Shown piece after piece: positions 11,616 to 26,155 of a stretch of DNA of 64,000 nucleotides (the stretch's first letter is position 1; every line of letters starts with the position of its first letter). Origin of the DNA: Escallonia rubra (taxonomy: Eukaryota; Streptophyta; Magnoliopsida; Escalloniales; Escalloniaceae); NCBI GenBank assembly GCA_033065855.1, contig JAVXUO010003231.1, positions 186,001 through 250,000 on the forward strand. Reading direction: 5' to 3'. Position numbers and translations under genes: made by a program. The notes beneath the pieces are model-generated. The model was not told the DNA's origin, did not search any database, and saw only the letters and a list, made by a program, of their open reading frames with translations.

Positions 11616-11768
11616 GGGTCGTGATCCATTGCCAGCGCTGGCAGGCTTGCCAGCGCTGTTTTGTCGTCCGCTACATAATGTAGCGGACGATAGTTGACGT
11701 CCGCTACATTATGTAGCGGACGGCAAAACAGCGCTGGCAAGCCTGCCAGCGATAGCAACGGATCAGCT

Positions 11769-11771
<3 letters not shown>
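11616..11771. mobile_element. 156-bp foldback MULE-derived MITE in a TA microsatellite
   Basis: The element begins GGGTCGTGATCC and ends GGATCAGCTCCC. It is a near-perfect inverted repeat over its whole length: the left arm CAGCGCTGGCAGGCTTGCCA is matched in reverse on the right. The centre holds two GTCCGCTA-N7-TAGCGGAC palindromes (near 11668 and 11699). TA repeats border both sides, so the exact target duplication is hidden in the microsatellite. Terminus and palindromes are shared with the elements at 11816 and 13631. It is the smallest member of that family and fully non-autonomous. Confidence 0.85.
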
Positions 11772-11815
<44 letters not shown>

Positions 11816-11818
<3 letters not shown>

Positions 11819-13595
11819 AGCTGATCCGTTGAGAGCGCTAGCAACTTGGGTTAAGTTGCTAGCGCAATCTGGCCGTCCACGCGCGATCTGTGGACGGTCT
11901 AGATCTTTTTTTTACATTTTTTTAAGTACGTCCGCTACATTATGTAGTGGACGATTTTTTGACAAAAATACCCTCCACCTCCGTCCGCTACATTATGTAG
12001 CGGACGATTTTTTGACAAAAATACCCTCCACCTCCGTCCGCTACATTATGTAACGGACGAGTGAGCAGTACTTTTTTTTTCTCTTTCTCTCGTTAATTGT
12101 CTGACATGTTTATTTCTCTCTCCCCTTTCTCTCTCTTTTCAGTCACCACTTTATGACTCTTTCTCTCACCACATTCTCGTTTTCTCTCTCACCTACCTCT
12201 CTCTCTCTCTCTCCAGACCTTTGATCTATTCTTTCTATTTTCCTATTTCGTGTTTGGTTTGTTGATTCTTCAGTTCTGTGATCCATTTCAGTTCTGTGAT
12301 CCATGCTCATGAACATATACACCCCACTGAAATTAAGGGCCGAAAGAAGGGGGGAAAAAAGAACTGAAGAAATGGAGAACTATCATAATCTTCAACCTTA
12401 GAACTAAATGAATCACGGTGAGACTCCGAACATTTATAGAACAAGGACTCCCAAAGCTCTGTCAACTCCAGAATGATAACTCCATCATCATTTTCACATT
12501 CTTGTTCAAACATGCCAAAAAGTTACAGAAAGTGGTTCTTCTTCCCTTGGACTCAGCAATCTGCCACCTCTTGTATCCATCATGTTAATCTTCAATTCAC
12601 CATAGTAGATGACATGGCCCTCACCATTAAGCTCTCTCCAAATAGACCCACCCCATATTCGACCCTTCTTTTCTCTATTGCGGCTCCACCATGAAGAAGA
12701 AGAAGAAAACTAGAGCCACAGCCCATTCATAGATACAGTCTCCACCAAAGAGGGAAAAAAAACTTGATTTCAGATATGATTCTAGGATACCCACCATTAA
12801 AAACACGATTTCAACCACCATTAAATTGACCAAGACAAGATCTGATTCTACACATAAACAAATAGATACCCACCACCGCAACAGCCACCGTCGCCGCCTT
12901 CAATCGGTGTCACCACCGACCGTCTACCTTCAGTCACTAATTCTGCAAATATCGCTACGAAAATGTCGTTCTCTGCAATTTTCGACACCAGGATCGCCGT
13001 CGTACCACATCCTACCTCCCTTCCGCCGTCGAGAATAGGGGCGGTGCGATGAAAGCAGCGGCTCTAGCGGTTTCGGGCTTGTGATGACCTCCTTTACAAA
13101 TCTGCCATCTTCATAATATGACGAAGACAATGGGTACAAGGGAGAGGGAGAAGATGAGAGGATGAGAGATGAGGAAGAGAGAGAAAATAAAAGGGTTGTC
13201 TCTCTTTTTCAGGTCTGACATATGGGTTGTCACTTTTCCAGAGAATAAAAGTAGTTGTCCCTTCTTCTCGTCCGCGCGGACATATATAATTGAAGATTGA
13301 GGGCTATTTTTATTAAAAATATTGTCCGCTACATTATGTAGCGGACATACTTAATGTCTTTTCCAGAGAATAAAAGCAGTTGTCCTTTTTTTTCGTCCGC
13401 TACATTATGTACCGGACATATATAATTAAAGATTGAGGGGTATTTTTGTCAAAAATATTGTCCGCTACATAATGTAGCGAACGTATTTAAAAAAAAGGCA
13501 AAAAAAAGATCTGGACCGTCCACAGATCGCGCGTGGACGGCCAGATCGCGCTAGCAACTTAACCCAAATTGCTAGCGCTCTCAACGGATCAGCTC

Positions 13596-13597
<2 letters not shown>
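11816..13597. mobile_element. 1.8-kb MULE of the TA-microsatellite family
   Basis: The termini are GGGAGCTGATCCGTTGAGAG at the left and its inverse (ending GGATCAGCTCCC) at the right. The repeats extend about 100 bp with internal stems: GCTAGCAACTT pairs with AAGTTGCTAGC, and CCGTCCAC with GTGGACGG. Palindromes of the GTCCGCTA...TAGCGGAC type occur near 11930, 11982, 12036, 13324, 13396 and 13461. TA repeats flank both ends (11772-11815 and from 13598). The interior (about 12060-13270) is pyrimidine-rich and then AT/GC-mixed. It has no transposase, so it depends on another member. Confidence 0.85.
12307..12700 (-). other. Possible captured host-gene fragment inside the 1.8-kb MULE
   Basis: On the minus strand from about 12700 to 12307 there are two overlapping protein-like stretches. 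One frame reads RIWGGSIWRELNGEGHVIYY and the next (12513-12307) reads MFEQECENDDGVIILELTEL. The amino-acid mix looks like real protein rather than repeat translation, which would fit transduction of gene pieces by a Pack-MULE. I cannot name the source gene, and the frames are not joined by an obvious intron. Confidence 0.35.

Positions 13598-13630
<33 letters not shown>
13598..13630. repeat. TA microsatellite between two MULEs
   Basis: About 16 TA units separate the right end of the 1.8-kb MULE from the left end of the 12.3-kb MULE. It is part of the original TA core of the host MITE and masks the target duplications. Confidence 0.95.
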
Positions 13631-13633
<3 letters not shown>

Positions 13634-13887
13634 AGCTGATCCCTTGACAGCGCTGGCAAAATAGGACATCTTGCCAGCGCGATCTGGCCGTCCATCCCGA
13701 AGGGATGGACGGCCCAGATCACTTTTTTTTGCGGCGCTGTCAGTCGTCCGCTACACTATGTAGCGGACGGACCTTTTTACCATCTTGCCCTCGTTCACCC
13801 GTCCGCTAGACTGTGTAGCGGACGACATTCTTGGGCCCACATCGTCCGACAAAAAGTAGTCCGCTACACAGTCTAGCGGACGACTGT
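13631..13887 (+). repeat. Left terminal inverted repeat of the 12.3-kb MULE
   Basis: It contains, in order, the 12-bp tip, a stem-loop with arms CGCTGGCA and TTGCCAGCG, a second stem-loop (13687-13711) with arms GCCGTCCATCCC and GGGATGGACGGC, then GTCCGCTA palindromes near 13745, 13801 and 13858. In MULEs such subterminal motifs are where the transposase binds; that role is inferred here. Confidence 0.85.
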
Positions 13888-14501
13888 CACAACTGCACAA
13901 TTCTGACACAATAGTGACTTGTGTGTACTTTTATTTCTGAACATCATAACGTTGTCGGCAATGCTGTCCGCTACACAGTATAGCGGACAGTATTGCCCAT
14001 CCCCAAAACCTGCTCAATTTTCTTTTAGCACAATTTTCTTCTCCTTCGGACTCGCTTCCATTTTCAGCTGCCTTCAAGCTTCGAGTAACACTTGCTTCAA
14101 GCTTCGCTCAAGCAAGGTAAGTTTGCTTCAAGTTTTCTTGATGTTCTAGAAATTTGTCACTGTATTCATCAATTTGTGATTTTATACTCTAGATTTTTTG
14201 TGATGTTCTAGACATGATGTTCATCAAAAAGGTATAATTTGTTAACTTTATATTTAATTCATTATAGTTTAATTCAATTTTTTGGCATGATGAATTCGTC
14301 TATTTATCTTACTAATTTAAATTTGTTATGTTCAATAAATTAATAATTGTTAATTTGGAGACACTTTTGAGATTATGCATACGGTATGTTTGTCATCCTA
14401 AATTGGTCTATTCGCCAAGGTAATTTTTAGGTAATATTTTCAGTTAGAAATGCCATTTGATTGTTAAGCGTAGTCTATTTCTACACAGCTTTTGTTTCAC
14501 A

Positions 14502-15763
14502 ATGTCTGATTTCGTGTCAAGCTCCAACGTCCCCGTAGATGCTAGTGATCCGTATCTAGGACAAACATTTGCTACGTTGGAAGAAGCTGAAGAATGTTTT
14601 CGAGCGTATTCATTGAGGGTTGGTTTTGGCATTAGAATAAAGACTTCAAGAACGAGCACCATAACGAGAAAGATATGCTCTCGCTTATACGAGTGCCATA
14701 GGAGCAAAAACCCAGTGCAAAATGAGACACGCGTAGGCAATGATGACAGTGATGACGAAATAGGATATCCGCGTAGAAGACGGGACTGCTTTGAGCGCGC
14801 AAATTGCCAGGTCAAGATGTTCGTAAGCTACAAACCCAAACAAGACCATTGGCTTATTACCAGCCTGGAACTGGCACACAATCACCCGTTAGTAACCCCT
14901 TCTAAGGTGAGTCAGATGCATCAACACAAGAAGATGGGTAAGGTCGCAAGGAGCCTGATTCAGACAATGAGCAATGCGCGACTAGGACCTACCGACATGA
15001 TTAATGTTCTTGCTGAACAGGCTGGGGGAATTCAAAATTTGACCTTTAACACGACAGACGTTCGTAACGCGGTCCGAACCCATAGACGAGCCGCGTATGA
15101 CCTCAATGATGCTCGGTGACATGTGTTTGCAAGAAGTTTGAGTTCCATGGCATCCTGTGTAGACACGTTCTGCGGTTTTTCACCCAGAAGAATATCAGGA
15201 CAATCCCCGATAAATACGTCTTGCCACAGTGGACGAAAGGTGCAAACAGGTTGCACGGTACCATTTCCTTTCCGGAGCACCCGTATACTGACTTTGAAGA
15301 ATCAGAGACGTTGCGGTATAATCATCTGGTGACGATGTTCACCCGTTTGTTCGTAAAGGGTGCTGCTACAATGGTCGGTTATAAACATCTCCTCGAGGTA
15401 GCTCAGCAACAAGAGCCCATCGTCGACCAGTTGGAAGCAGCTTCAGTCACCAACGCGGTTGACACCGAGCCAACGACGAGATCAGAAGACGACGAGCCGG
15501 GGGAGGAAGACGACAATGATATCCGGCCGTTGGATCCAATTATATCGCAAACGAAAGGCCGCAAGAGATCTACGCGGATGAAAAGCTCAATTGAAACGGC
15601 AACTCAACCTAAAAAGCTGCGAAGGTGTGCATTGTGCAACAAAATGATTGACCACGACAAGCGGAACCATTACAAGGCACTGGGGATAAGTCCAGGGGGT
15701 TTGCAAGACGGGGAAGAAGATGACGCCGAAGATGAGGACGGACAAGCTGTAGTGGACCTTTAA
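14502..15763 (+). pseudogene. FAR1/MuDRA-type MULE transposase with its DDE core deleted
   Basis: The start ATG at 14502 follows a 5' leader with a likely intron (donor near 14117, GTAAGT; acceptor near 14441). The first frame (205 residues to the TGA at 15117) has a FAR1-type DNA-binding zinc finger: C59, C65 and C102, then H126-N-H128 within LELAHNHPL. It ends just past the point where the MULE DDE domain should begin. At 15116 the frame shifts and continues as a SWIM finger (TCVCKKFEFHGILCRH, pattern CxC..CxH) plus an acidic C-terminal tail (to 15763) that ends with a CxxC/H-like CALCNKMIDHDKRNHYK segment. The roughly 1.2-1.4 kb encoding the catalytic DDE core is therefore missing and the junction is out of frame. 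Family members bind element ends and cut DNA; this copy can at most bind. Confidence 0.8.
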
Positions 15764-15769
15764 TTTTTT

Positions 15770-15945
15770 GTATAAGTTTGACATTTGTAATAATTTTTAT
15801 GGCATGATAGACATTTGTATAAGTTTGACATTTGTAATAATTTTTATGGCAAGATAGACATTTGTATAAGTTTGACATTTGTAATAATTTTTATGGCAAG
15901 ATAGACATTTGTATAAGTTTGACATTTGTAATAATTTTTTACCTA
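15770..15945 (+). repeat. 47-bp tandem repeat, about four copies
   Basis: Units starting at 15770, 15817, 15864 and 15911 share GTATAAGTTTGACATTTGTA followed by ATAATTTTTATGGCAAGATA. They lie immediately downstream of the transposase stop codon, in its presumed 3' UTR. Confidence 0.9.
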
Positions 15946-16034
15946 ATAATTTTTCGACCGAATACTGGAATGTTTTTACCATCTGATGTATAGCGGACGG
16001 ATATACAGGGACCTAATTTTTTGGTCTTCATTTA

Positions 16035-16870
16035 TGTCCGCTATACTATATAGCGGACGGCGCAGCAGAAAGCTCCACCCATCTAAACTTAGAAAAATTT
16101 GGTCTTCATTTTACGTCCGCCATACAATGTAGCGGACAGCATAGCAGAAACTTTGGTCTTCATTTTACGTCCGCTATATAATGTAGCGGACGGCATAGTA
16201 GAAACTTTGGTCTTCATTTTACGTCCGCTATACAATGTAGCGGACGGCATAGCAGAAACTTTGGTCTTCATTTTACGTCCGCTATACTATATAGCGGACG
16301 GTGCAGCAGAAAGCTTCACCTATCTAAACTTAGAAAAATTTGGTCTTCATTTTACGTCCGCCATACAATGTAGCGGACGGCATAGCAGAAACTTTGGTCT
16401 TCATTTTACGTCCGCTATACAATGTAGCGGACGGCATAGCAGAAACTTTGGTCTTCATTTTACGTCCGCTATACAATGTAGCGAACGGCATAGCAGAAAC
16501 TTTAGTCTTCATTTTACGTCCGCTATACTATATAGCGGACGGCGCAGCAGAAAGCTCCACCTATCTAAACTTAGAAAAATTTGGTCTTCATTTTACGTCC
16601 GCCATACAATGTAGCGGACAGCATAGCAGAAACTTTGATCTTTATTTTACGTCCGCTATACAATGTAGCGGACGGCATAGCAGAAACTTTTGGTCTTTAT
16701 TTATGTCCGCTATACTATATAGCGGATGGCGCAGCAGAAAGCTCCACCCATCTAAACTTAGAAAAATTCTCTACCTACATTTGTCCGCTACATTGTATCG
16801 CGAACGGAGCATGAGATTTAAAAAAATTGTCTACCTTGTCCGCTACATTGTATAGCGGACGGCACAGCAG
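16035..16870. repeat. Array of GTCCGCTA...TAGCGGAC palindromes with a 241-bp higher-order period
   Basis: Monomers of about 53 bp carry a GTCCGCTATACAATGTAGCG-type palindrome followed by CATAGCAGAAACTTTGGTCT. Palindromes occur near 16035, 16115, 16170, 16223, 16276, 16357, 16410, 16463, 16516, 16598, 16651, 16706, 16782 and 16838. Every fourth unit carries a variant spacer (AGCTCCACCTATCTAAACTT), which produces a 241-bp higher-order repeat (16115, 16357, 16598). The array lies between the 3' ends of two convergent genes. The same palindrome fills the element termini. The array yields spurious 171-residue frames. Confidence 0.95.
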
Positions 16871-17044
16871 AAAGACTAAACTTCACTACTTAGAAAATTT
16901 TTGCACCATTTCGTTTTCCACATTTCAATCATTCCCAATGAGGCCAAAAAACAAACAACTGAAATCAATCAATCAGTAATCGACAACAGAAATCAACACA
17001 AATCAAATCACACCAATGAATCACGGTTTATGTAAAAAATACTA

Positions 17045-18485
17045 GGGATAATATCAGTTATATCCCTCACTTTAGGGGTAAATTACAGCCGAGGACACAG
17101 GTTTGCGTTTATATCACTTATGTCCGTTGACCAGACAGAATACGAACGGTGTTAAAATTTTGCATGAAATGACATGATTGCCCTTGAGACCAAATCCCTC
17201 CCCCCTCTCTCTCTCTCTCTCTCTCTCTTCCCTTTCTCTTCTATTTCTCTCTTCTTCCATCACCCTCAACCTCTCTCCTTCCTCTCTTTCTTTTCCCATC
17301 CTCTCTCTCTTTTTCCCCTTCTCCCACTCTCCAACCCCCCACCACCTCCATAGAACACACAATCAAAACTCGCACGACACACACCCAAACCCACGAAATT
17401 TGGCATTAAACCCCAATTAGGCATCACAACCAGAATCTCATTTGAACCATTGCCCGTGGGTACACGATTCGCAATGACCAGTCCCGACAACGAGCGATTT
17501 GAGGATACGGACGAATCGATCGACGATCATGGGACCAACGAGTCGTCGTCGTCTCGTGAGATCTCCGAGAATTCGGGAGATTCGAGGCAGGGCGGTGAGG
17601 CTGGGCTAACGGGGCGTTTGACGGACATACTTGTGGATGACGGTGACGGGGATCTGTTGTTCGAAAGGGAGGATGGGGTTCTGCAGTGGCTGCAGGCCCT
17701 AGATATGCAGGTTATGGGGGCCTGCCGCACGGCTGAGCGGCTCAAGCCGTTGCTGAAGTTGAACCAGACGAGCGGCGCGGCGGAGGATCGGTTTCTAGCT
17801 CATCTGACCCAGGTGCGTTTTCTCGAAATACTGTGGAACGTCACCCATCTCACAGAGTCGTTGCACACCAGCCCTGAGCCCATCATCAGCTCCACGAACT
17901 CTACCGAGTCCACCCCGTGACTCAGGTTCTTCTCAATGTGCCGTGGTGGTGGTGGTGGATCGAATCTGTGATGGGTTTGTGGTGGGTTTGGTGACTTGTG
18001 ATTCCCCGTTGACTGGCTGGTTTATGACTGAAACGACGGTGGTGGTGCGTATGGCTGGACTGATGGTGGTGGTGTGGGTGGGTATGGTGGTGGTTTTGGT
18101 TTTCGTGTTGGAGGTGACGCCGATGGTGGGACGACCGTGGAGGTCGTAGGTGGTGGCATTTTGTTTTGGAATTAGACATTAGAATTAGATAGAGATGGGA
18201 AGACAGAATCAAGATTATGAGAGCAAGAAGAGAAGAAATGGAAAGAGAACAGAGAAAATGGGAAGGAAGAGGATATGTATAAAATATGTATTAGGGGTAA
18301 TATTGTCATTTTCAAAATATGATATTACCACATCAGCAAAAACCGTTAGTTAGGGTCACAGAACCCTAACGGTGGTCATATATGATACACAATTTTAACT
18401 TTTTGGATAAGAGTGCAAATTTTTAAAACTTGTGTCTTTGACTGTAATTTACCCCTAAACTCAGGGATATAAGTGATATTATCCC
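17045..18485. mobile_element. Pack-MULE (1.44 kb) inserted in the larger MULE
   Basis: The termini are GGGATAATATCAGTTATATC at the left and, in reverse complement, GGGATAATATCACTTATATC at the right, with the inverted repeat running on through GGGGTAAATTACAG. The flanking 9-bp duplication AAAATACTA is perfect (17036-17044 and 18486-18494), the Mutator hallmark. The interior carries a GC-rich, gene-like segment (17450-17920) downstream of a CT-rich leader, the usual make-up of a Pack-MULE. Related elements are at 53193-55493 and 54148-55282. Confidence 0.9.
17450..17920 (+). pseudogene. Captured 5' fragment of a conserved plant gene of unknown function
   Basis: The 156-residue frame starts with an acidic, Ser-rich N-terminus and then reads LFEREDGVLQWLQALDMQVM, GACRTAERLKPLLKL and [12 protein letters not shown] recognise this as the conserved start of an uncharacterised single-copy plant protein family. 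At CTGACCCAG/GTGCGT (about 17812) there is a splice-donor-like junction where homology to that family appears to stop, so the last 30-odd residues are probably intron or other captured sequence. It sits wholly inside the 9-bp-flanked MULE, so it is transduplicated rather than the native locus. There is no evidence that it is expressed. Confidence 0.6.
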
Positions 18486-18524
18486 AAAATACTATTATGA
18501 TACAAATCAAATCACACCAATGAA

Positions 18525-21500
18525 TCACGGATTCTCGTCATTAGCCGGATTTTCTCTAAACCTAACCGCTCTAGGCCGGCGTTTCATAATTTGCCAAGCT
18601 ATTCTATATCTATAGGTTTCAACTTCTGCTTGGCTCCAGACGGTCGCCTTGAGGCTCTCAGAGCGACAAATGAAATCCATGTACATGCAAAGGAAGACGC
18701 CGCAGTCCGAAGTGTTACGTTGCTTGGGCCTCCTCTTCTTCAATCGCCTATCGAAATTTGGCCGCGCCAGTACGGGGTCACCACGGACACGATTGACCAT
18801 TGCACAAAAAATATTCTGCGAGAAACAGAAAATGGCGTAAGACACGAGTTAAAATTTATGGCAAGATAGAATCAGAGCATTATACAACGATCGTGATATT
18901 ACCAATGAGTCCAACTGGGCTCTGTACATCTGCAGCACAGGCATACCGAGAGTATCGTCGTGGAGACTGTCGATCACCGATACGACTTTACTTGTTGGGG
19001 CGTAGCAAACCAAGTACCAGTGGCTTTCCCCTAGAAATGGGATTAGAAACACATCGGCAACACTTGCGCTCACCGGACTATCCCTATTAAGATACGCTCG
19101 TAGGTTAGCGGACGGTCTCCACTGGGCCAACTTTTTCTTCCCCCTATGTTCGACCCACTCCCGCCATTCAGACACTAGGATGCTATGAAAAAAGGCATCC
19201 AACAAAAAAACGGCCGGATAGGTCGGCTGCTGCCGACACCTTTCCTTCAGAATCTCCACGTTGGTGGAGACGACACCGTTGTCTAACCAACTCCCCGGAG
19301 CCAGGGAGGCCAGTTCTCCCCACGAGCAACTGTAATCCATGCCCTCCGGATGATCCACACTATACGACGCGTTGTCATGCCGGTAGCCGCTAAAATAACG
19401 CTTTCTGATTATCTGGCATTTATGCGGCTTTAGGGGCTTCAACGGATGCCCTTTGCGATATTGCCCTCGGGGGTCGACCGGGGGATATTGCACTCCTTCG
19501 GGGGGGTCGACCGGGGGATATTGCACTCCTTCGGGGGGGTCAACGGGGGGGGGGGGTGTATTGCCCGCCTTCGGCAATAGATGGTCCTGCCCACAGGACA
19601 ATGGGCAGTGTCTCGGACAGACTGATGTTTCCGAAACCCCAGTCTTGCGTGACTTGACTCTGAGAGAGGGGTTGGGGTTCCGAATCCAATAGCAAAGAGA
19701 AGGAGGGTGCACTGTAATCTTCCCACGGCGCTTGAGCCTGGCCCATGGTGCTTGGCGGTCCCCAATCACCACCCATTTCCGGTACAGAGGGAAAACCATA
19801 TCCCTGGCTCACTCCCGAAGTCTGTCCCGAGGGATCGGTGCATCCCTCGGGAACAAACGGCCGCTGCCACCCCGGATAACCCATTCCCGGGGTGACGCCC
19901 GAAGGCCGTCCCGATGCTTGCCACAAAAAATTCCCGCAGCCATATGCCAACGCTTCAGCCTGTTGGCAAAGCTCCTCGCCCATGGCATCCACCAAATCAT
20001 TCCGCTCGCTCAACTTATGGAAGAAGGCGAACGAGGCATTAACCTACATCCAGAGTAGGGATGGCAATGGGGCGGGTCGGATGCGGATCTTCTAAAATCC
20101 GAACCCGCCCCACTAGTCATGGAACTTCGCCCCGCCCCGCCCCGCCCCGCCACCGGGTTATTTATGTGAAATACCATAACCGATCCTATGAGAATGTGGA
20201 AATCCCGCACCCGCCCCGCCCCGCCCCGCCCCGCTCTCGTTGAATCGATTGTACCCCTCACCCCTGAAACACGAGCCTTCGGCAGAGAAGAAGGCAGCGA
20301 AGCCGGCGTAACCTTCGACAGAGAAGAAGGCAGCGGCGCCGGCGTAGCCTTCGGTGGAGCCGTCGCAAGCTCGACGGCAGCGGCGCCGGCGTAGCCTTCG
20401 GTGGAGCCGTCGCAAGCTTGACGGCAGAGGCGCCGGCGTAGCCATCGGCAGAGAAGAAGGCAGCGGCGCAGGCGTAGCCTTCGGCAGAGCCTTCGGTGGA
20501 GCCGTCGCAAGCTCGTCGCCGTGCGGTGGAGAGTGGGCTGAGTCGGTGGCTGAGTGAGAGAGCCAGAGAGAAGGTCGTGAGAGTGAGAGAGCCAGAGAGA
20601 AGGTGAGTGAGAGAGCCAGATCGTGAGAGTGAGAGAGCCAGAGAGAAGTTGGGACAGATTTAGGGTTTGGGAGGAAAAGAACATATATATAGTACAGGAT
20701 GGATGGCTAAGATCAAATGATATATTAGGGTAAGTATACCGGGGCGGGGCGGGGCGGGTCGCGGGGCGGTTGGGCAAAATACCATACCCGGTCCTAACCC
20801 GCTACGGGTTTTTTTTTTAAATACCATACCCGCCCCGTAGTCCGATCAAAGTCAAAAAAACCCGCTCCTAACGGGGCGGATATCCGCCGGATCGGACTTA
20901 AATTGCCATCCCTAATCCAGAGAGATAATAAATAAGTAACTTCGTACACACTTAGAATGATCAAGTTCAATTAGAAGCACTGGTTGGGCAACTTACCAGA
21001 TTGTATGCCATGTGCTCATCGATCTGACCCCTAGGGTGGTACTTCTCCCCGCGTTCAAACCTTACTGGAGCTACTATCCTCCGGGTGATGCTGTAGTACC
21101 ACTCATTGTACTGTTCGATGCTGATGACGGAGTCAGGCTCCGACACAATGGTCGCCAGCGTGTCCTGCCAGGAATTCCAGACCTCAATTTCACGCGTGCA
21201 CAAGTCGTGCGTATTCGCCCTGCCAAACCGTCCGACACCCGGTGGGTTCCTGTTAAGCCTCATATCTGGCGCGCCGGCTGGCAACCCCTGCAGGCAGTCA
21301 AAATGGCGCATAGCGCGATCTGGCAGCTGCCACTCTGCGACCTCGAAGTGGATCAGGGGTGTGCGTTGCAACTCGGAGAGCGTGAAGACGAACGACTCTC
21401 CCACCCGTCGTGCCAAACGTTTGTACGGTGCCCATCGCATCTGGCCAGGAGATAACGAGTTGAGCTCCCCCCGATAGTATGAAATGTTGTGATGGGGATC

Positions 21501-24500
21501 GTCTCTCCTCTCGTAGTGGGTTTCCTTCTGGCTGTACTCCCAGGCGCACAACCGAGGCCACACATTATCTGTTCCGTCCCTACGCCTGGGTGCGCCGGTA
21601 GCAAGGTGTTCATAAGACCACACTTGAGAGCAAAGACATTAAATAAAGTATCGTCAACATTTATTGTCCATTCAACAAAAAAAAAAAAAAAAAACAATAA
21701 AGAGCACGTAATGAAGAATTGTATGATATACCTGCAATAGCGAGAGACATGCACATATCGCTTTGGAGTCGGGCCTCGTTGCCTTGTGCAATGCTCGGTA
21801 CAGGTATGCAAGAGTTGCTGCACCCCAGGCATAATCCCCAACCTCAGTCAGGTTACGCAAAAACGGTAAATATTTGACGCTGACCGTGTTCTTCGACGTC
21901 GTTGGGAATAATATTGCCCTCATCACCCACCAGAGGAAGGCTTGTGTGTACAGCACAAGGTCATGGCCCGTATAGTTTTCTGGCAAAACCCCGTAGGTAT
22001 CTACCAACCACTTCAACTTGATACCACCACTGCTAAATTGATCCTGGGGTATCGAAGTAAAGAAGTCCCTAGCGGTCCTCTTATTCGTTGCTTCGGACGG
22101 ATGAGCTATTACCGGCCGCCCCGTCACCGGTAACCCTAAGATGAACCCTACATCTTCTAGGGTAATTGTCATCTCTCCGAGAGGGAAGTGAAACGTATTC
22201 GTTTCACTTCTCCACCTTTCAACAAGGGCACCTATTAAGTGCCGGTCAAGTTGTTGAAAGATCTGCCCATGCGTGAAAATCCCAAACCCAATCCCACGCA
22301 GTAATCTTTTCTGGGTTCTGTTCAATTTCCAGGCGTTGAAATTATCGCTTACTTCTACCGTGTTGACAAGTGCTCTTTCCTACGAATTAATAAATATTAT
22401 TTAAGCAAAATAAACGATATACAACGTTCGCAACTGAAAAACGTAAGCAAAATAAACGATATAATCTTGTTCCCAACCCATTCTGGTCGCACCCAAAGGC
22501 CCACTACGGTCCCACTTTGCATGACACGTCCGCACAAGCAACATACATTTTCAACGCTCACAACCGGTCAAAGCATGCACGCTCAAGTAACGTGACCAAG
22601 CCTCATGACGCTTCGACCGTCGCACTTCGCACGTTGTCCATCGACGCGCCATGACACTTGCCCAAGGAAGTTGGCCTTGGCCTCCCCCTTGGGGTCGGCC
22701 TCGGCCTCGGCCTCCCCCTTGGGGTCGGCCTCGGCCTCGGCCTCCCCCTTGTGGCTTAGCACCTTCACTTTTCTTCAAGAGGCCTTGCATCCTTCGCGAC
22801 GCCCTTCGCCCATCATCCGGACATCAACCTCGCGACGTCCGTCGTGCATCACCTTACGGACGTTCGTACATCAACCTCGCGACGTCCGTCGTGCATCACC
22901 TTACGGACGTTCGTACATCAACCTCGCGACGTCCGTCCTGCAACAACCTCTCGTCGCCCGGACACAACTCCGCGACCCCCGTCGCCCGGACACAACTCCG
23001 CGACCACGTCGCCCGGACACAACTCCGCGACCCCGTCGCCCGGACACAACTCCGCGACCCCCGTCGCCCGGACAGAACTCCGCGACCCCGTCGCCCGGAC
23101 ACAACTCCGCGACCCCCGTCGCCCGGACACAACTCCGCGACCACGTCGCCCGGACACAACTCCGCGACCCCCGTCGCCCGGACACAACTCCGCGACCCCG
23201 TCGCCCGGACACAACTCCGCGACCCCCGTCGCCCGGACACAACTCCGCGACCCCGTCGCCCAGATACAACTCCACGACGCTCATCATCCGTCGCCCGGAC
23301 GTCGTCTTCATGACCCCCGTCACCGACGTCTGGGCGTCACACTCCAACACTTCGCCGCGCCCGTGCGCCGCGCCGCTGATACAGCCGTGCCCCCAGGCTC
23401 TCTGTCACACTACCGTGCCCCCGGCCCCATAAGCACTTTGTCGCGCCCATGCGCCACCATTGACACCAACGTGCCCCCGGCACCTTACGCACTCTGTCGC
23501 GCCCATGCGCCACCATTGACACAAACATGCCCTCGGCACCTTACGCACTTCATCGCGCCCATGCGCCACAATCATGTCATCATGCCCCCGGGCACCTTAC
23601 TCACTTCATCGCGCCCATGCGCCACAATCATGTCATCATGCCCCCGGGCACCACACTCATTCATCACACCATGCGCACCTTGCCTTGGTCATGGAACATG
23701 CTTCAACCCACTCTCCGGAGTGTACATCATCCGCGGGGATAGGCGACTCCTCCGGGACACTATCTCTGCCAGGGAGCTCTTCAACTCCCCTTCCGCCAGG
23801 TAGACGGCTCCTCCGGGATGCTACCTCGGCCAGTCGGGTAGACGGCTCCTCCGGGATGCTACCTTGACATGCTCCGAGTGCTCCGGCACAAGGACTCACC
23901 CGCGGGGATAGGCGACTCCTCCGGGACACTATCTCTGCCAGGGAGCTCTTCAACTCCCCTTCCGCCAGGTAGACGGCTCCTCCGGGATGCTACCTCGGCC
24001 AGTCGGGTAGACGGCTCCTCCGGGATGCTACCTTGACATGCTCCGAGTGCTCCGGCATAAGGACTCACCCGCGGGGATAGGCGACTCCTCCGGGACACTA
24101 TCTCTGCCAGGGAGCTCTTCAACTCCCCTTCCGCCAGGTAGACGGCTCCTCCGGGATGCTACCTCAGCCAGTCGGGTAGACGGCTCCTCCGGGATGCTAC
24201 CTTGACATGCTCCGAGTGCTCCGGCATAAGGACTCACCCGCGGGGATAGGCGACTCCTCCGGGACACTATCTCTGCCAGGGAGCTCTTCAACTCCCCTTC
24301 CGCCAGGTAGACGGCTCCTCCGGGATGCTACCTTGGCCGGCCGGGTAGACGGCTCCTCCGGGATGCTACTTTGGCCTGCGGAATAGACGACTCCTCCGGG
24401 ACACTATCTCCGTCAGGGTGCCTGCGTGACTGGCCTACGTGCTCCGGCACTGGGGGCTTGCGTCGGCACCCCTAGGGACTATGACCCCCGGGTCACTTCG

Positions 24501-25308
24501 AGACGGGAGCAGGTCTTCGGAGGGCATCGCGCCTAGTTCACCTGGCAGTTGGGCGTCGGGTCTTCCCCACCGCTGTCAGGCCTGTGGGACTCCGCAAGGG
24601 CTTGGATTGGAGGCTAGATCAAGGGGTTTCTCTGGCCGCAACGACGTTGTGGGAGCCAGTCTTTCCAGACAGACAGAGCGACGCTGTGAAGAGCAGGCCG
24701 GTTGAATATGCGATCCGACAGTCCGTGGAGCACCGGCATCTGTGGACCCCCCGGTGACGTGTCACTCCCGGGGAGCACCACGTGTCGGTTTATGACATCA
24801 TCATCTCAATCTCTATAAATAGAGGTCTTGAGAATTCATTTGAAAGAGAAAAAAAGAGAAGAACATTTTGGACATTTTCACTTTCTCACTCTAGAATTCT
24901 AGAGAGAGAAACATACAGCACCCTGACTCTGGACCTAAGCATCGAACTGTGACTGTCATCGCGTATTCATCTCGCGCTATCGCCCTCGCAGCACTGCCAC
25001 CCTCGAGTTCTGTCTGGGAAGCCCTTGGTCTCTGCCCTTGTTCCACCCTTGCTGTGTCTCACATCAACATACTTGGAAGCTGACGCGGACTGCAGCCTTT
25101 GTGGCACCTCCACGTAAGCTCGAACCCACTTTCCTTGGCATCAACGATAAAATAAGTATCTTACTCCACCATCCCATATGAGCGTACTGATATGGTTTGC
25201 TTGGTCGTATAATACGGACGGATCTTCTGGTCCAGGGTTGAAATCTATTTTTTGTAACTGAAATAATGGAAAGAGGGCAAGGTTCGAAGCGTAAATATTC
25301 CCAAACAT
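18525..25308 (-). CDS. PMD (plant mobile domain) - C48 Ulp1-like protease gene of the MULE
   Basis: I reconstruct five exons on the minus strand: 25308-25165 (48 codons from ATG), 22379-21732, about 21622-20997, 20043-18903 and 18815-18525. Exon 1 ends ...NPGPEDPSVLYDQANH...WDGG and joins in phase to ERALVNTVEV. Exons 1-3 encode a PMD domain with TLEDVGFILGLPVTGRPV and VWSYEHLATGAPRRRD. A Gln/Pro/Gly-rich linker leads into the protease: His in FLGESHWYLV (about 19022), Asp in VVSVIDSL (about 18971), Gln in PKQRN (18722) and Cys in TSDCGVFLCMYMD (18704), the complete C48 set. Defects are visible: the exon 2-exon 3 join is one base out of frame at the only AG available, and a C12 run (19545-19556) shifts the frame. 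Introns 1 and 3 hold an LTR-like element and a hAT. PMD and C48 proteins are known MULE passengers; their function in transposition is unknown. Confidence 0.75.
19455..19560 (-). repeat. Pro-rich coding minisatellite with a C12 homopolymer
   Basis: On the minus strand PPVDPPEGVQY is encoded in two full copies and a third partial one, by a 33-bp unit. The adjacent run of 12 C (G on the plus strand, 19545-19556) is where the reading frame of the PMD-C48 exon shifts by one base. It is either a true mutation or a sequencing/assembly slip. Confidence 0.8.
20056..20914. mobile_element. hAT element (859 bp) in intron 3 of the PMD-C48 gene
   Basis: The termini TAGGGATGGCAAT and ATTGCCATCCCTA are flanked by the perfect 8-bp duplication ATCCAGAG (20048-20055 and 20915-20922). 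Subterminal GGGGCGGGTCGG/CCGCCCCG motifs are repeated at both ends. The interior contains a GC-rich minisatellite (about 20270-20520; GGCGTAGCCTTCGGTGGAGC units). No transposase is encoded. It lies about 12 bp from the splice acceptor of exon 4, so it may disturb the branch point or pyrimidine tract. Confidence 0.9.
22950..23300 (+). repeat. 27-bp GC-rich tandem repeat, about 12 copies
   Basis: The repeated unit is GTCGCCCGGACACAACTCCG followed by CGACCCC, with slight length variation (26-28 bp). It gives long but meaningless frames on both strands. A shorter related repeat (TCAACCTCGCGACGTCCGTC) precedes it at about 22826-22940. Confidence 0.95.
23731..24400 (+). repeat. 169-bp tandem repeat, about four copies
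   Basis: Units begin with CGCGGGGATAGGCGACTCCT at about 23731, 23900, 24069 and 24238 and are almost identical. Each contains two or more copies of GACGGCTCCTCCGGGATGCT. They produce identical 87-residue minus-strand frames that are not genes. Confidence 0.95.
24810..24830 (+). promoter_or_regulatory. TATA-box promoter of the LTR-like element
   Basis: TCTATAAATAGAGG lies about 90 bp upstream of a leader rich in AGAGA/TCTAGAG motifs, the normal arrangement of a plant LTR promoter. The relative at 57.1 kb has CCTATATATAATGG at the matching place. Confidence 0.5.
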
Positions 25309-25730
25309 ACAACGCTAGCATATTCAGCGTTAGCATGTGATCAGATAATACGCAATACACATATATAATATATATGTATATACATTGACAAACGCTAGCA
25401 TAGTGCCGATCTACTTGCCAACGCCGCAAGATGAACTCTAGATTATGAACAAAGAAAGGATTGGTTTGTGAACTTACGTGATTGATGAGACGATTAAAGG
25501 ATTTCTTGCAAAGAAATTACGCCGATCTACTTGCCAACGCCGCTGGTTTGATCGTGAGAAGAAGGAATAGTTTGATTGTGAGAAGAAGGAATGAATAGAA
25601 GTTTAGAAGGATTTCGAATACTTGCCAACGTCCGCTACACTGTGTTGCGGACGCTGGGATAACGACAAAGTAACAATCGTGCATCGACTGATGTGACAAC
25701 TGTTAGGGGGAAGTGGGTGGTTTGACGGAA

Positions 25731-25963
25731 ACAGTCATCCGCTAGACAGTGTAGCAGACTACTTTTTGTCGGACGATGTGGGCCCAAGAATGTCGTCCGC
25801 TACACAGTCTAGCGGACGGGTGAGGGAGGGCAAGATGGTAAAAAGGTCCGTCCGCTACATAGTGTAGCGGACGACTGACAGCGCCGCAAAAAAAAAGTGA
25901 TCTGGGCCAGATCGCGCTGGCAAGATGTCCTATTTTGCCAGCGCTGTCAAGGGATCAGCTCCC
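25731..25963 (-). repeat. Right terminal inverted repeat of the 12.3-kb MULE
   Basis: It is the inverse of 13631-13887, with three palindromes at about 25737, 25794 and 25852. The second stem-loop of the left arm is absent: GATCTGG runs directly into CCCAGATC, a clean loss of the 25-bp hairpin. The other differences are few substitutions and one extra A. Confidence 0.85.
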
Positions 25964-26155
25964 ATATATATATATATATAACTTTATAAATTGCATATCT
26001 GACTTATAATCCGGACTTGGTCCAAACGCTGGATATGATTTCTTGCTTATCCGGTCTTATCCGACGGTATAGCTTGTCCGGCCTTATCCGCTCTTATCTT
26101 GTCCTTATCCTTATCCTTATCCTTATCCTTATCCTTGTCGCCAAACGCAGCCCTA

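Follow-up and report, generated by a model that had tools for sequence, protein, structure and literature searches.

What does a second gene do in a Mutator-like element (MULE) when it fuses a plant mobile domain (PMD) to an Ulp1-like protease (C48) and lies convergent with a FAR1-type transposase gene? This question is raised by the window analysed here, a stretch of 64,000 nucleotides from Escallonia rubra (GCA_033065855.1, contig JAVXUO010003231.1, positions 186,001 to 250,000).

The element and its defective copy in the window

Inspection of the ends revealed an element at 13631-25966, set in TA repeats and larger than the 14502-25308 proposed by an earlier sequence-only reading. The inverted repeats of that reading were borne out by an ungapped alignment of 165 nt at 97% (13723-13887 / 25731-25895), or about 250 bp when one indel is allowed. 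The left terminal inverted repeat (TIR; 13631-13887, plus strand), with the tip GGGAGCTGATCCCTTGACAGCGC, adjoins a (TA)n run at 13598-13630, and the right TIR (25731-25966, minus strand) adjoins one at 25964-25979. The same abutment at both ends was found in L034, L035, L036, C2390 and C1436, some tips of the latter two being truncated; the ends of C1822 abut no (TA)n. In the window and the siblings inspected, the flanking TA repeats mask any target duplication of 8-11 bp. The left TIR has at least 40 other genome matches at 95-98% (best 40 of 2372 candidates scored), and the family is young and high-copy, with at least 100 near-identical transposase copies. Rfam at gathering cut-offs gave no match within the window.

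In its complete form, about 8.4 kb long, the element codes for a FAR1-MULE-SWIM transposase and, in convergent orientation, for a PMD-Ulp1 (C48) protein. For the plus-strand gene, both domains described earlier are present, namely the FAR1 DNA-binding part (14502-15119; PF03101, 5.9e-14) and the SWIM and C-terminal part (15110-15763; PF04434, 8.5e-5), but the deletion of the MULE catalytic domain between them had gone unseen. Alignment to L034-L036 revealed that about 1.03 kb including this domain is missing, the two parts abutting in different frames at 15110-15119 with a 3-bp microhomology at the junction and a stop just beyond it. The intact homologue in L035 carries the MULE domain (6.7e-33), and FAR1, MULE and SWIM were all present in both copies scanned (L035, L026).

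The minus-strand gene is indeed composed of five exons. Exon 1 (25165-25308; start codon by inspection) comprises 48 codons, ...NPGPEDPSVLYDQANHISTLIWDGG, with the donor GTAAG at its end, and is followed by exon 2 (21732-22379) and exon 3 (20997-21623), which encode the first and second halves of the PMD (PF10536, 6.4e-49 and 7e-19). The repeat-rich linker and the His/Asp segment of C48 lie in exon 4 (18903-20043, 1141 bp), which scores 0.018 against PF02902 (15.3 bits, under the 20.7-bit cut-off; sibling L035, 21.5 bits), while exon 5 (18525-18815) encodes the catalytic Gln/Cys segment QRNTSDCG (PF02902, 1.2e-6) and was joined through a checked, in-frame intron 4 junction. A search of the window intron 2 yielded no canonical junction giving the expected join, by which the lost acceptor was recognised; its AG is kept in L034, L035, L036 and L039. 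In addition, exon 4 is shifted in frame at a C12 run (19545-19556), past which it reads open in L035, L037 and L038. Sibling alignment, the lost acceptor and this frameshift together rule out an intact window copy. A sequence search for a solved structure of the first PMD half found none at E up to 1.

Alignment to L034, L035 and L036 further exposed three insertions absent from all of these siblings. The first (17045-18485), an element outside the two-gene system, has 60-bp inverted ends and a 9-bp target duplication, AAAATACTA; the second (20056-20914), in intron 3, is hAT-like with an 8-bp duplication, ATCCAGAG; and the third (22465-25139, about 2.67 kb), in intron 1, is rich in tandem repeats, with an LTR identity suggested by its layout only and termini that are unproven. 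With its transposase devoid of the MULE domain, its PMD-C48 gene broken and three foreign insertions, the window copy is dead. As read from its sequence, it is a defective FAR1/Jittery-type MULE targeting TA microsatellites.

Pairing, conservation and constraint of the two genes

The siblings L034-L036 (about 8.4 kb) hold both genes, convergent and between the same termini as the window element, a co-occurrence for which the sequence-only reading had proposed a check. The transposase is open in two of these three, and the PMD-C48 gene is unbroken in none of them, each carrying lesions; elsewhere, C668 and C2268 keep both genes better. Both genes within one TIR pair were also observed in the more distant elements C2390, C1436, C1822, C783, C2268 and C270. 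Genome searches scored the best 40 of 2372, 119 of 3434 and 150 of 3634 candidates, so that absence from a list is not true absence: C601, C982 and C1503 showed no PMD among the matches listed, yet their contig DNA contains PMD-C48. For at least 65 of the best 119 transposases (3434 candidates), a PMD exon follows 3.9-6.0 kb downstream in convergent orientation; other layouts within 12 kb amounted to one same-strand and three divergent cases. PMD-C48 was likewise present in all three copies picked by hand, rather than at random, from the commonest transposase score class. A blind search with C48 recovered FAR1 and SWIM convergent with PMD-C48 at 8 of 11 loci, falling into two deeply diverged subfamilies, A and B, between which dS is nearly saturated. 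The sequence-only reading named copies without the second gene, or a separate nested origin of that gene, as grounds for refutation, and its core idea withstands both, although the pair is incomplete in some copies: in C1957, PMD-C48 is present while FAR1 and SWIM gave no match, C2714 and C1063 retain only a FAR1 remnant, C1822 has lost most of the PMD, and a partial element in C270 has, by eye, seemingly lost the PMD-C48 body. We conclude that the pairing of transposase and PMD-C48 is a family trait.

The His, Asp, Gln and Cys noted earlier in the window protein were confirmed, and the same catalytic residues are present in L034-L036, L037, L038 and the subfamily-B copies C1385, C2714 and C1957. 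In C2268 they are read across two frames, C270 has Tyr at the expected Cys position, and C48 is truncated in L039. The four residues of a subfamily-B relative align with those of SENP2, the His/Asp stretch of this alignment being weak. The predicted protease residues are conserved in nearly every copy inspected.

Between subfamily-A lineages, dN/dS was 0.20-0.27 for MULE, 0.25-0.50 for PMD and 0.40-0.50 for C48, all with upper bootstrap limits below 1, and both genes are, by this measure, constrained at that depth. This constraint on PMD and C48 did not extend to near-identical siblings, among which C48 gave 1.04, 1.13 and 3.13. In subfamily B the C48 ratio lies near 0.7-0.8, and intervals reach or cross 1 in five of five pairs for C48a and three of three for MULE.

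Possible roles of the PMD-C48 protein

Outside the genes, the intergenic region (15764-17044) contains tandem repeats with a TCCGCTA/TAGCGGA palindrome, counting 24 half-sites in 1320 bp when 18486-18524 is included. Half-site density is 18 per kb between the genes, 7.7-7.9 per kb in the element ends and 0.33 per kb in PMD-C48, with none in 8147 bp of transposase. The motif GTCCGCTA is concentrated at the ends and in the gap between the genes rather than in coding DNA, and when 8-mers were ranked across seven subfamily-A elements by their occurrence at both ends and in the gap, it came out on top; the same ranking in subfamily B gave no equally clear motif, just weak shared words. The palindrome may simply be a transposase binding site.

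The PMD offers a second clue. In all three subfamily-B copies scanned it matches DUF1985 at 3e-7 to 8e-7 (29.5-30.8 bits, under the Pfam cut-off of 35.1), the same exons also matching DUF7745 at 1.8e-4 to 5e-3; the DUF1985 score is only 0.022 in the window copy, and the Pfam scan of L036 returned no DUF1985 match. DUF1985 is a domain of VANC proteins, and this weak resemblance points to VANC. The linker between PMD and C48 holds peptide repeats that vary in number between copies, and repeats of this type and variability are described for VANC in the available part of PMC5735166.

By analogy, we favour, at a probability of roughly 55%, a two-gene defective MULE whose PMD-C48 protein would be a VANC-like anti-silencing accessory. 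Much as VANC does for VANDAL elements, this second protein would enable the family to evade host silencing or to live with it. Its PMD half would guide it to DNA of its own family, in the simplest case to the terminal and intergenic GTCCGCTA palindromes, and there the Ulp1 half could remove SUMO, or a modifier akin to it, from proteins of chromatin or of silencing; cutting at the TIRs is presumably done by the transposase and not by the product of the second gene. The recurrent pairing, the constraint in subfamily A, the placement of GTCCGCTA, the DUF1985 matches and the linker repeats speak for this reading; the low DUF1985 scores, the weaker motif and dN/dS picture in subfamily B, the C48 ratios and PMD-C48 lesions of the siblings, and the deviant copies C1957, C270 and L039 speak against it. 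A less likely, more far-reaching version holds that this would be a second plant anti-silencing system, built on a different transposase, in which the TA-targeting family spreads because PMD-Ulp1 reads GTCCGCTA of its own family and frees silencing factors there of SUMO or a related modifier, PMD and DUF1985 being branches of one transposon-borne, sequence-reading family of anti-silencing domains.

A possible but rather doubtful alternative is that PMD-C48, like mudrB, aids the transposase itself, for instance in stability, insertion or de-modification processing, without any part in anti-silencing. In its favour, the partner gene lies convergent within one and the same element and is constrained between subfamily-A lineages, and the GTCCGCTA motif is located at the TIRs, where a transposase should bind. 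However, the resemblance of the PMD to DUF1985 favours VANC, the single-ORF Jittery is described as autonomous in the available text of PMC4486113, and, as weaker evidence, the window copy and C1957 keep PMD-C48 sequence without a working transposase.

It is improbable that PMD-C48 is a captured host gene, a transduplicated passenger without a role for the element. MULEs often capture genes. Repeated Ulp1 capture is documented in what is available of PMC2528002 and PMC13317346, a PMD-protease fusion is mentioned for host genes in PMC7156037 (likewise in part), and the lesions in the siblings' PMD-C48 genes fit a passenger, as do the C48 ratios, which are at least 1 for near-identical siblings and about 0.7-0.8 for subfamily B. 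Yet one layout shared by two subfamilies between which dS is close to saturation, together with PMD and C48 ratios below 1 between subfamily-A lineages, fits a neutral passenger poorly, and at least 65 of the 119 young copies scored keep PMD-C48. A distinct element carrying PMD-C48 and inserted into the MULE, conceivable in a copy that does hold three other insertions, is ruled out by L034-L036, which have none of these and carry both genes within one TIR pair; the gene spacing also recurs, and a search for termini specific to PMD-C48 found none.

The family matters beyond this locus: detailed knowledge of plant transposon anti-silencing so far concerns the VANC proteins of one MULE group, and the family offers a second place in which to test the recurrence of such systems, the role of the PMD and SUMO removal as the chemical step. 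As the PMD also occurs in the host silencing proteins MAIN/MAIL1 (PMC5418596, available part), the result would bear on both sides of the conflict.

Comparison with known systems

The arrangement recalls several known MULEs. The mudrA and mudrB genes of MuDR are also convergent, but mudrA is not known to carry a FAR1 domain and mudrB differs in kind from PMD-C48, Pfam scans of the window's second gene having returned PMD and C48. Two genes in one MULE are likewise reported for maize MuDR in the introduction of PMC4486113.

Among the closest are the KAONASHI MULEs and KIU, VANC genes with an Ulp1 domain from the VANDAL elements of Arabidopsis, in which the Ulp1 gene is antisense to the transposase, as here, and VANC carries DUF1985, to which the subfamily-B PMD is weakly similar (PMC13317346, PMC5735166, PMC2528002). 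Noncoding motifs in variable tandem repeats and variable peptide repeats are common to both. In contrast, the present transposase is FAR1/Jittery-type, the element has long TIRs and targets TA, and the N-terminal domain of its second protein is scored as a PMD in the strict sense; anti-silencing, proposed for the present family, is demonstrated for VANC. VANDALs are non-TIR according to PMC13317346 and PMC2528002 and have TIRs of 46-174 bp according to PMC6446971, whose table gives PMD and/or DUF for half of the VANDAL members; the non-TIR trait of KI-MULE/KIU differs from the long TIRs here.

Melon and grapevine Jittery-like MULEs carry a ULP coding sequence downstream of the transposase, as here, which PMC2528002 terms transduplicated, the word PMD being absent from its available text. 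PMD lies antisense to the transposase, as here, in the MUDR, MUDRAVI2 and Solanaceae MULE groups (PMC6446971, PMC5418596), whose transposase groups in PMC6446971 differ from the present one; its table lists the dicot/monocot Jittery group with one ORF, FAR1 and no PMD, and the words peptidase and protease are absent from the available text. MuTAnT, SaTar, Micron and TAFT share TIRs adjoining (TA)n (PMC4486113, PMC5907723), SaTar also its non-nested arrays (PMC5907723) and AutoMuTAnT a Jittery-like transposase, although AutoMuTAnT, which has a single ORF in 4.9 kb, is presented in the available part of PMC4486113 without PMD-C48, against two genes in about 8.4 kb here. Since the literature already describes Ulp1 antisense to a MULE transposase, Jittery-like MULEs with Ulp1, and other MULE clades with PMD in antisense, the "system of its own" of the sequence-only reading was too strong a claim; PMD in MULEs, Ulp1 in MULEs and TA-targeting MULEs are each known, and it is their combination that is new.

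Structure of the element and damage in the window copy

The two terminal inverted repeats (TIRs) of ~250 bp, which begin GGGAGCTGATCC, share 97% identity across their ungapped portion and both adjoin TA repeats, place the element at 13631-25966. On the plus strand, the FAR1 domain of the transposase gene (14502-15119) is directly followed by the SWIM domain in a different frame (15110-15763), while the five-exon gene on the minus strand encodes a plant mobile domain (PMD) and an Ulp1/C48 protease; the genes lie tail to tail with a tandem-repeat region between them. This confirmed the convergent FAR1/SWIM and PMD/Ulp1-like pair proposed in the sequence-only reading, including the inverted repeats enclosing both genes, although the proposed span of 14502..25308 had to be extended to the TIRs. 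Left of the main element, two shorter elements (~11617-11771 and ~11816-13597, ends partly set by eye) carry ends related to those of the main element, and the TCCGCTA/TAGCGGA palindrome is common to all. As only TA repeats separate the three across 11617-13630, they form a non-nested array resembling SaTar.

The window copy is dead. Comparison with three sibling copies (L034, L035 and L036, at C601, C23 and C982), whose TIRs are 96-97% identical and 8.4 kb apart, revealed that ~1.03 kb of its transposase gene, including the MULE domain, is missing, with a 3-bp microhomology at the deletion junction. The L035 transposase is open over 764 aa with FAR1, MULE (6.7e-33) and SWIM, L034 is open across the same length, and the longest frame in L036 spans 608 aa. 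Three insertions absent from all three siblings were located at 17045-18485 (9-bp duplication), 20056-20914 (intron 3 of PMD-C48, 8-bp duplication) and 22465-25139 (intron 1 of PMD-C48); subtracting these ~5 kb and adding the missing 1 kb yields the sibling length. In PMD-C48, the intron-2 acceptor retained in L034, L035, L036 and the further copy L039 is gone, and a C12 run shifts the frame of exon 4, which is open there in L035 and two further copies, L037 and L038. The first insertion is bounded by inverted ends of 60 bp, and a Pfam scan gave no match for its 148-codon open frame (17474-17917); the third is GC-rich, with several tandem-repeat arrays (27-, 56- and 169-bp units) and a TATA-like stretch close to its right end.

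Association of the two genes across the genome

The transposase and PMD-C48 belong to a single element. Both genes lie within one TIR pair in L034-L036, as well as between the inverted ends of C2390 (236 bp, 77% identity), C1436 (228 bp, 80%), C1822 (204 bp, 82%), one C783 copy (300 bp, 91%), C2268 (936 bp, 90%, three units of ~312 bp) and C270. When the 566-Mb assembly was searched using only the C48 family, eight of the 11 leading loci showed FAR1 and SWIM convergent with PMD-C48 (C2390, C1436, C1822, which has lost most of its PMD, C783, C272, C2268, C1385 and C270). The co-occurrence was not universal: C1063 and C2714 retain only a FAR1 remnant and C1957 has neither FAR1 nor SWIM beside PMD-C48. 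The 11 loci split into subfamily A, to which the window copy also belongs, and subfamily B. The two share 56-67% identity in the MULE core, 34-59% in PMD, and 23-27% and 43-48% in the first part and Cys segment of C48, respectively; nearly every comparison between them is saturated at synonymous sites. In C2714 and C1957 (L022-L023, L027-L028), subfamily-B PMD-C48 genes form large inverted pairs with scant or absent transposase, possibly derivatives carrying the second gene alone.

The best 119 of 3434 candidates from a transposase-core search were all 98-100% identical to the query; 100 had an open frame of >=780 aa without internal stop (manual table count), and 41 held one common score. Among these 119, at least 65 had a PMD among the best 150 of 3634 PMD-exon candidates (97-100% identity) lying 3.9-6.0 kb downstream in opposite orientation, one had a listed PMD upstream only and 53 had none; same-strand and divergent neighbours within 12 kb numbered one and three among the matches listed. 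Likewise, at least 65 of the 150 PMD exons had a listed transposase partner. Both counts are lower bounds, since C601, C982 and C1503 fall among the 53, yet their fetched DNA carries PMD-C48. Three of three copies chosen by hand from the commonest transposase score class contained PMD-C48, with C48 truncated in one. Among the 41 strong TIR matches listed, the window's own included, at least 21 had a listed transposase <=12.5 kb inward, at least 19 a listed PMD and at least 8 both. The C48 search also returned many more matches with open frames of ~410-490 aa and near-identical scores, which suggests another high-copy C48-bearing repeat family.

Preservation and selection

Better-kept copies were found elsewhere, but none that was fully read was lesion-free in both genes. 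PMD-C48 carries an exon 3 frame break and stops in the C48 part in L034, and an exon 2 stop in L035, while L036 has stop codons in both exon 2 and exon 4. In C668, the transposase is open (783 aa), as is all of PMD-C48 that was read: exon 2, exon 3 beyond its beginning, and exons 4 and 5. In C2268 (subfamily B), the transposase, PMD and C48 frames are all open, the first of them with a single unknown base.

Pairwise NG86 dN/dS values with bootstrap intervals were obtained for subfamily A against C2390, C1436, C1822 and C783 where present. Such values, here and below, combine the effects of constraint while elements spread and of decay once they have inserted. Between these lineages, ratios were 0.20-0.27 for MULE, 0.22-0.35 for FAR1, 0.25-0.50 and 0.33-0.44 for the PMD halves and 0.40-0.50 for C48, all with upper limits <1, and 0.36-0.61 for the linker, with one limit slightly >1. 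Constraint on PMD and C48 was evident between these lineages, but not among near-identical siblings (0.22 to 3.13, wide intervals), where C48 ratios of 1.04, 1.13 and 3.13 reveal no recent protease constraint. Subfamily B gave 0.40-0.74 for PMD (limits <1 in 8/10 pairs), 0.66-0.81 for C48a (interval crossing 1 in 5/5), 0.24-0.93 for C48b (limits <1 in 2/5) and 0.49-0.66 for MULE (interval reaching 1 in 3/3).

Possible role and relation to published systems

The window copy and its siblings retain the catalytic His, Asp, Gln and Cys of C48, as do most of the subfamily-B copies that were read, with Tyr replacing Cys in C270; a subfamily-B relative matched SENP2 (3.3e-7), chiefly across the Cys segment. 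A sequence search of the first PMD half against solved structures found no relative. In 3/3 copies scanned, the subfamily-B PMD exon matched both DUF1985 (3.3e-7 to 8.2e-7, which falls short of the curated cut-off) and DUF7745 (1.8e-4 to 5.1e-3), while the window-copy PMD reached 0.022 against DUF1985 and the L036 PMD gave no DUF1985 match. A DUF1985 domain is marked in the VANC anti-silencing proteins of VANDAL MULEs; these proteins contain variable peptide repeats and bind short motifs within variable tandem repeats of their own elements (PMC5735166). The PMD-C48 linker holds an 11-residue repeat whose copy number varies between element copies.

TCCGCTA half-sites were counted on both strands in the window and L034-L036. 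Intergenic DNA held 94 in 5180 bp, and the two ends held 28 (3642 bp) and 24 (3037 bp). The transposase (8147 bp) and the window's nested insertions (4968 bp) had none, PMD-C48 had 4 over 12063 bp that include part of the introns, and the remaining 49617 bp of the window had 2. When 8-mers other than simple repeats were ranked on whether they occur in the two ends as well as in the gap, using seven of nine listed subfamily-A elements, GTCCGCTA took first place; it occurred in both compartments in 7/7, within repeat units that vary from element to element. Across five subfamily-B elements, CCGCTAC occurred once and the ranking returned just weak shared words. The parallels with VANC support the possibility of a VANC-like role for PMD-C48, the main rival being a transposition accessory. 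The sibling lesions and sibling C48 ratios leave the odds of both readings unchanged, as they fit decay after insertion.

The combination of PMD-C48 with a FAR1-type MULE is new within the literature searched, since none of the titles and abstracts listed for PMD with Ulp1/C48/SUMO protease concerned a MULE-borne PMD-C48 gene. Its component parts are already known. VANDAL elements hold Ulp1-bearing KIU genes with a hypomethylating effect, the Ulp1 part being described there as of unknown role (PMC13317346), and the plant Jittery group is assigned one ORF (PMC6446971). Melon and grapevine Jittery-like MULEs contain ULP sequences, which occur in either orientation across MULEs (PMC2528002), and TA-targeting MULEs are described (PMC4486113, PMC5907723). 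Also on record are antisense PMD for several MULE groups, half of the VANDAL members having PMD and/or DUF (PMC6446971), host PMD fusions with protease, kinase or phosphatase (PMC7156037), and two captures of PMD-C by MULEs, for which anti-silencing was suggested (PMC5418596).
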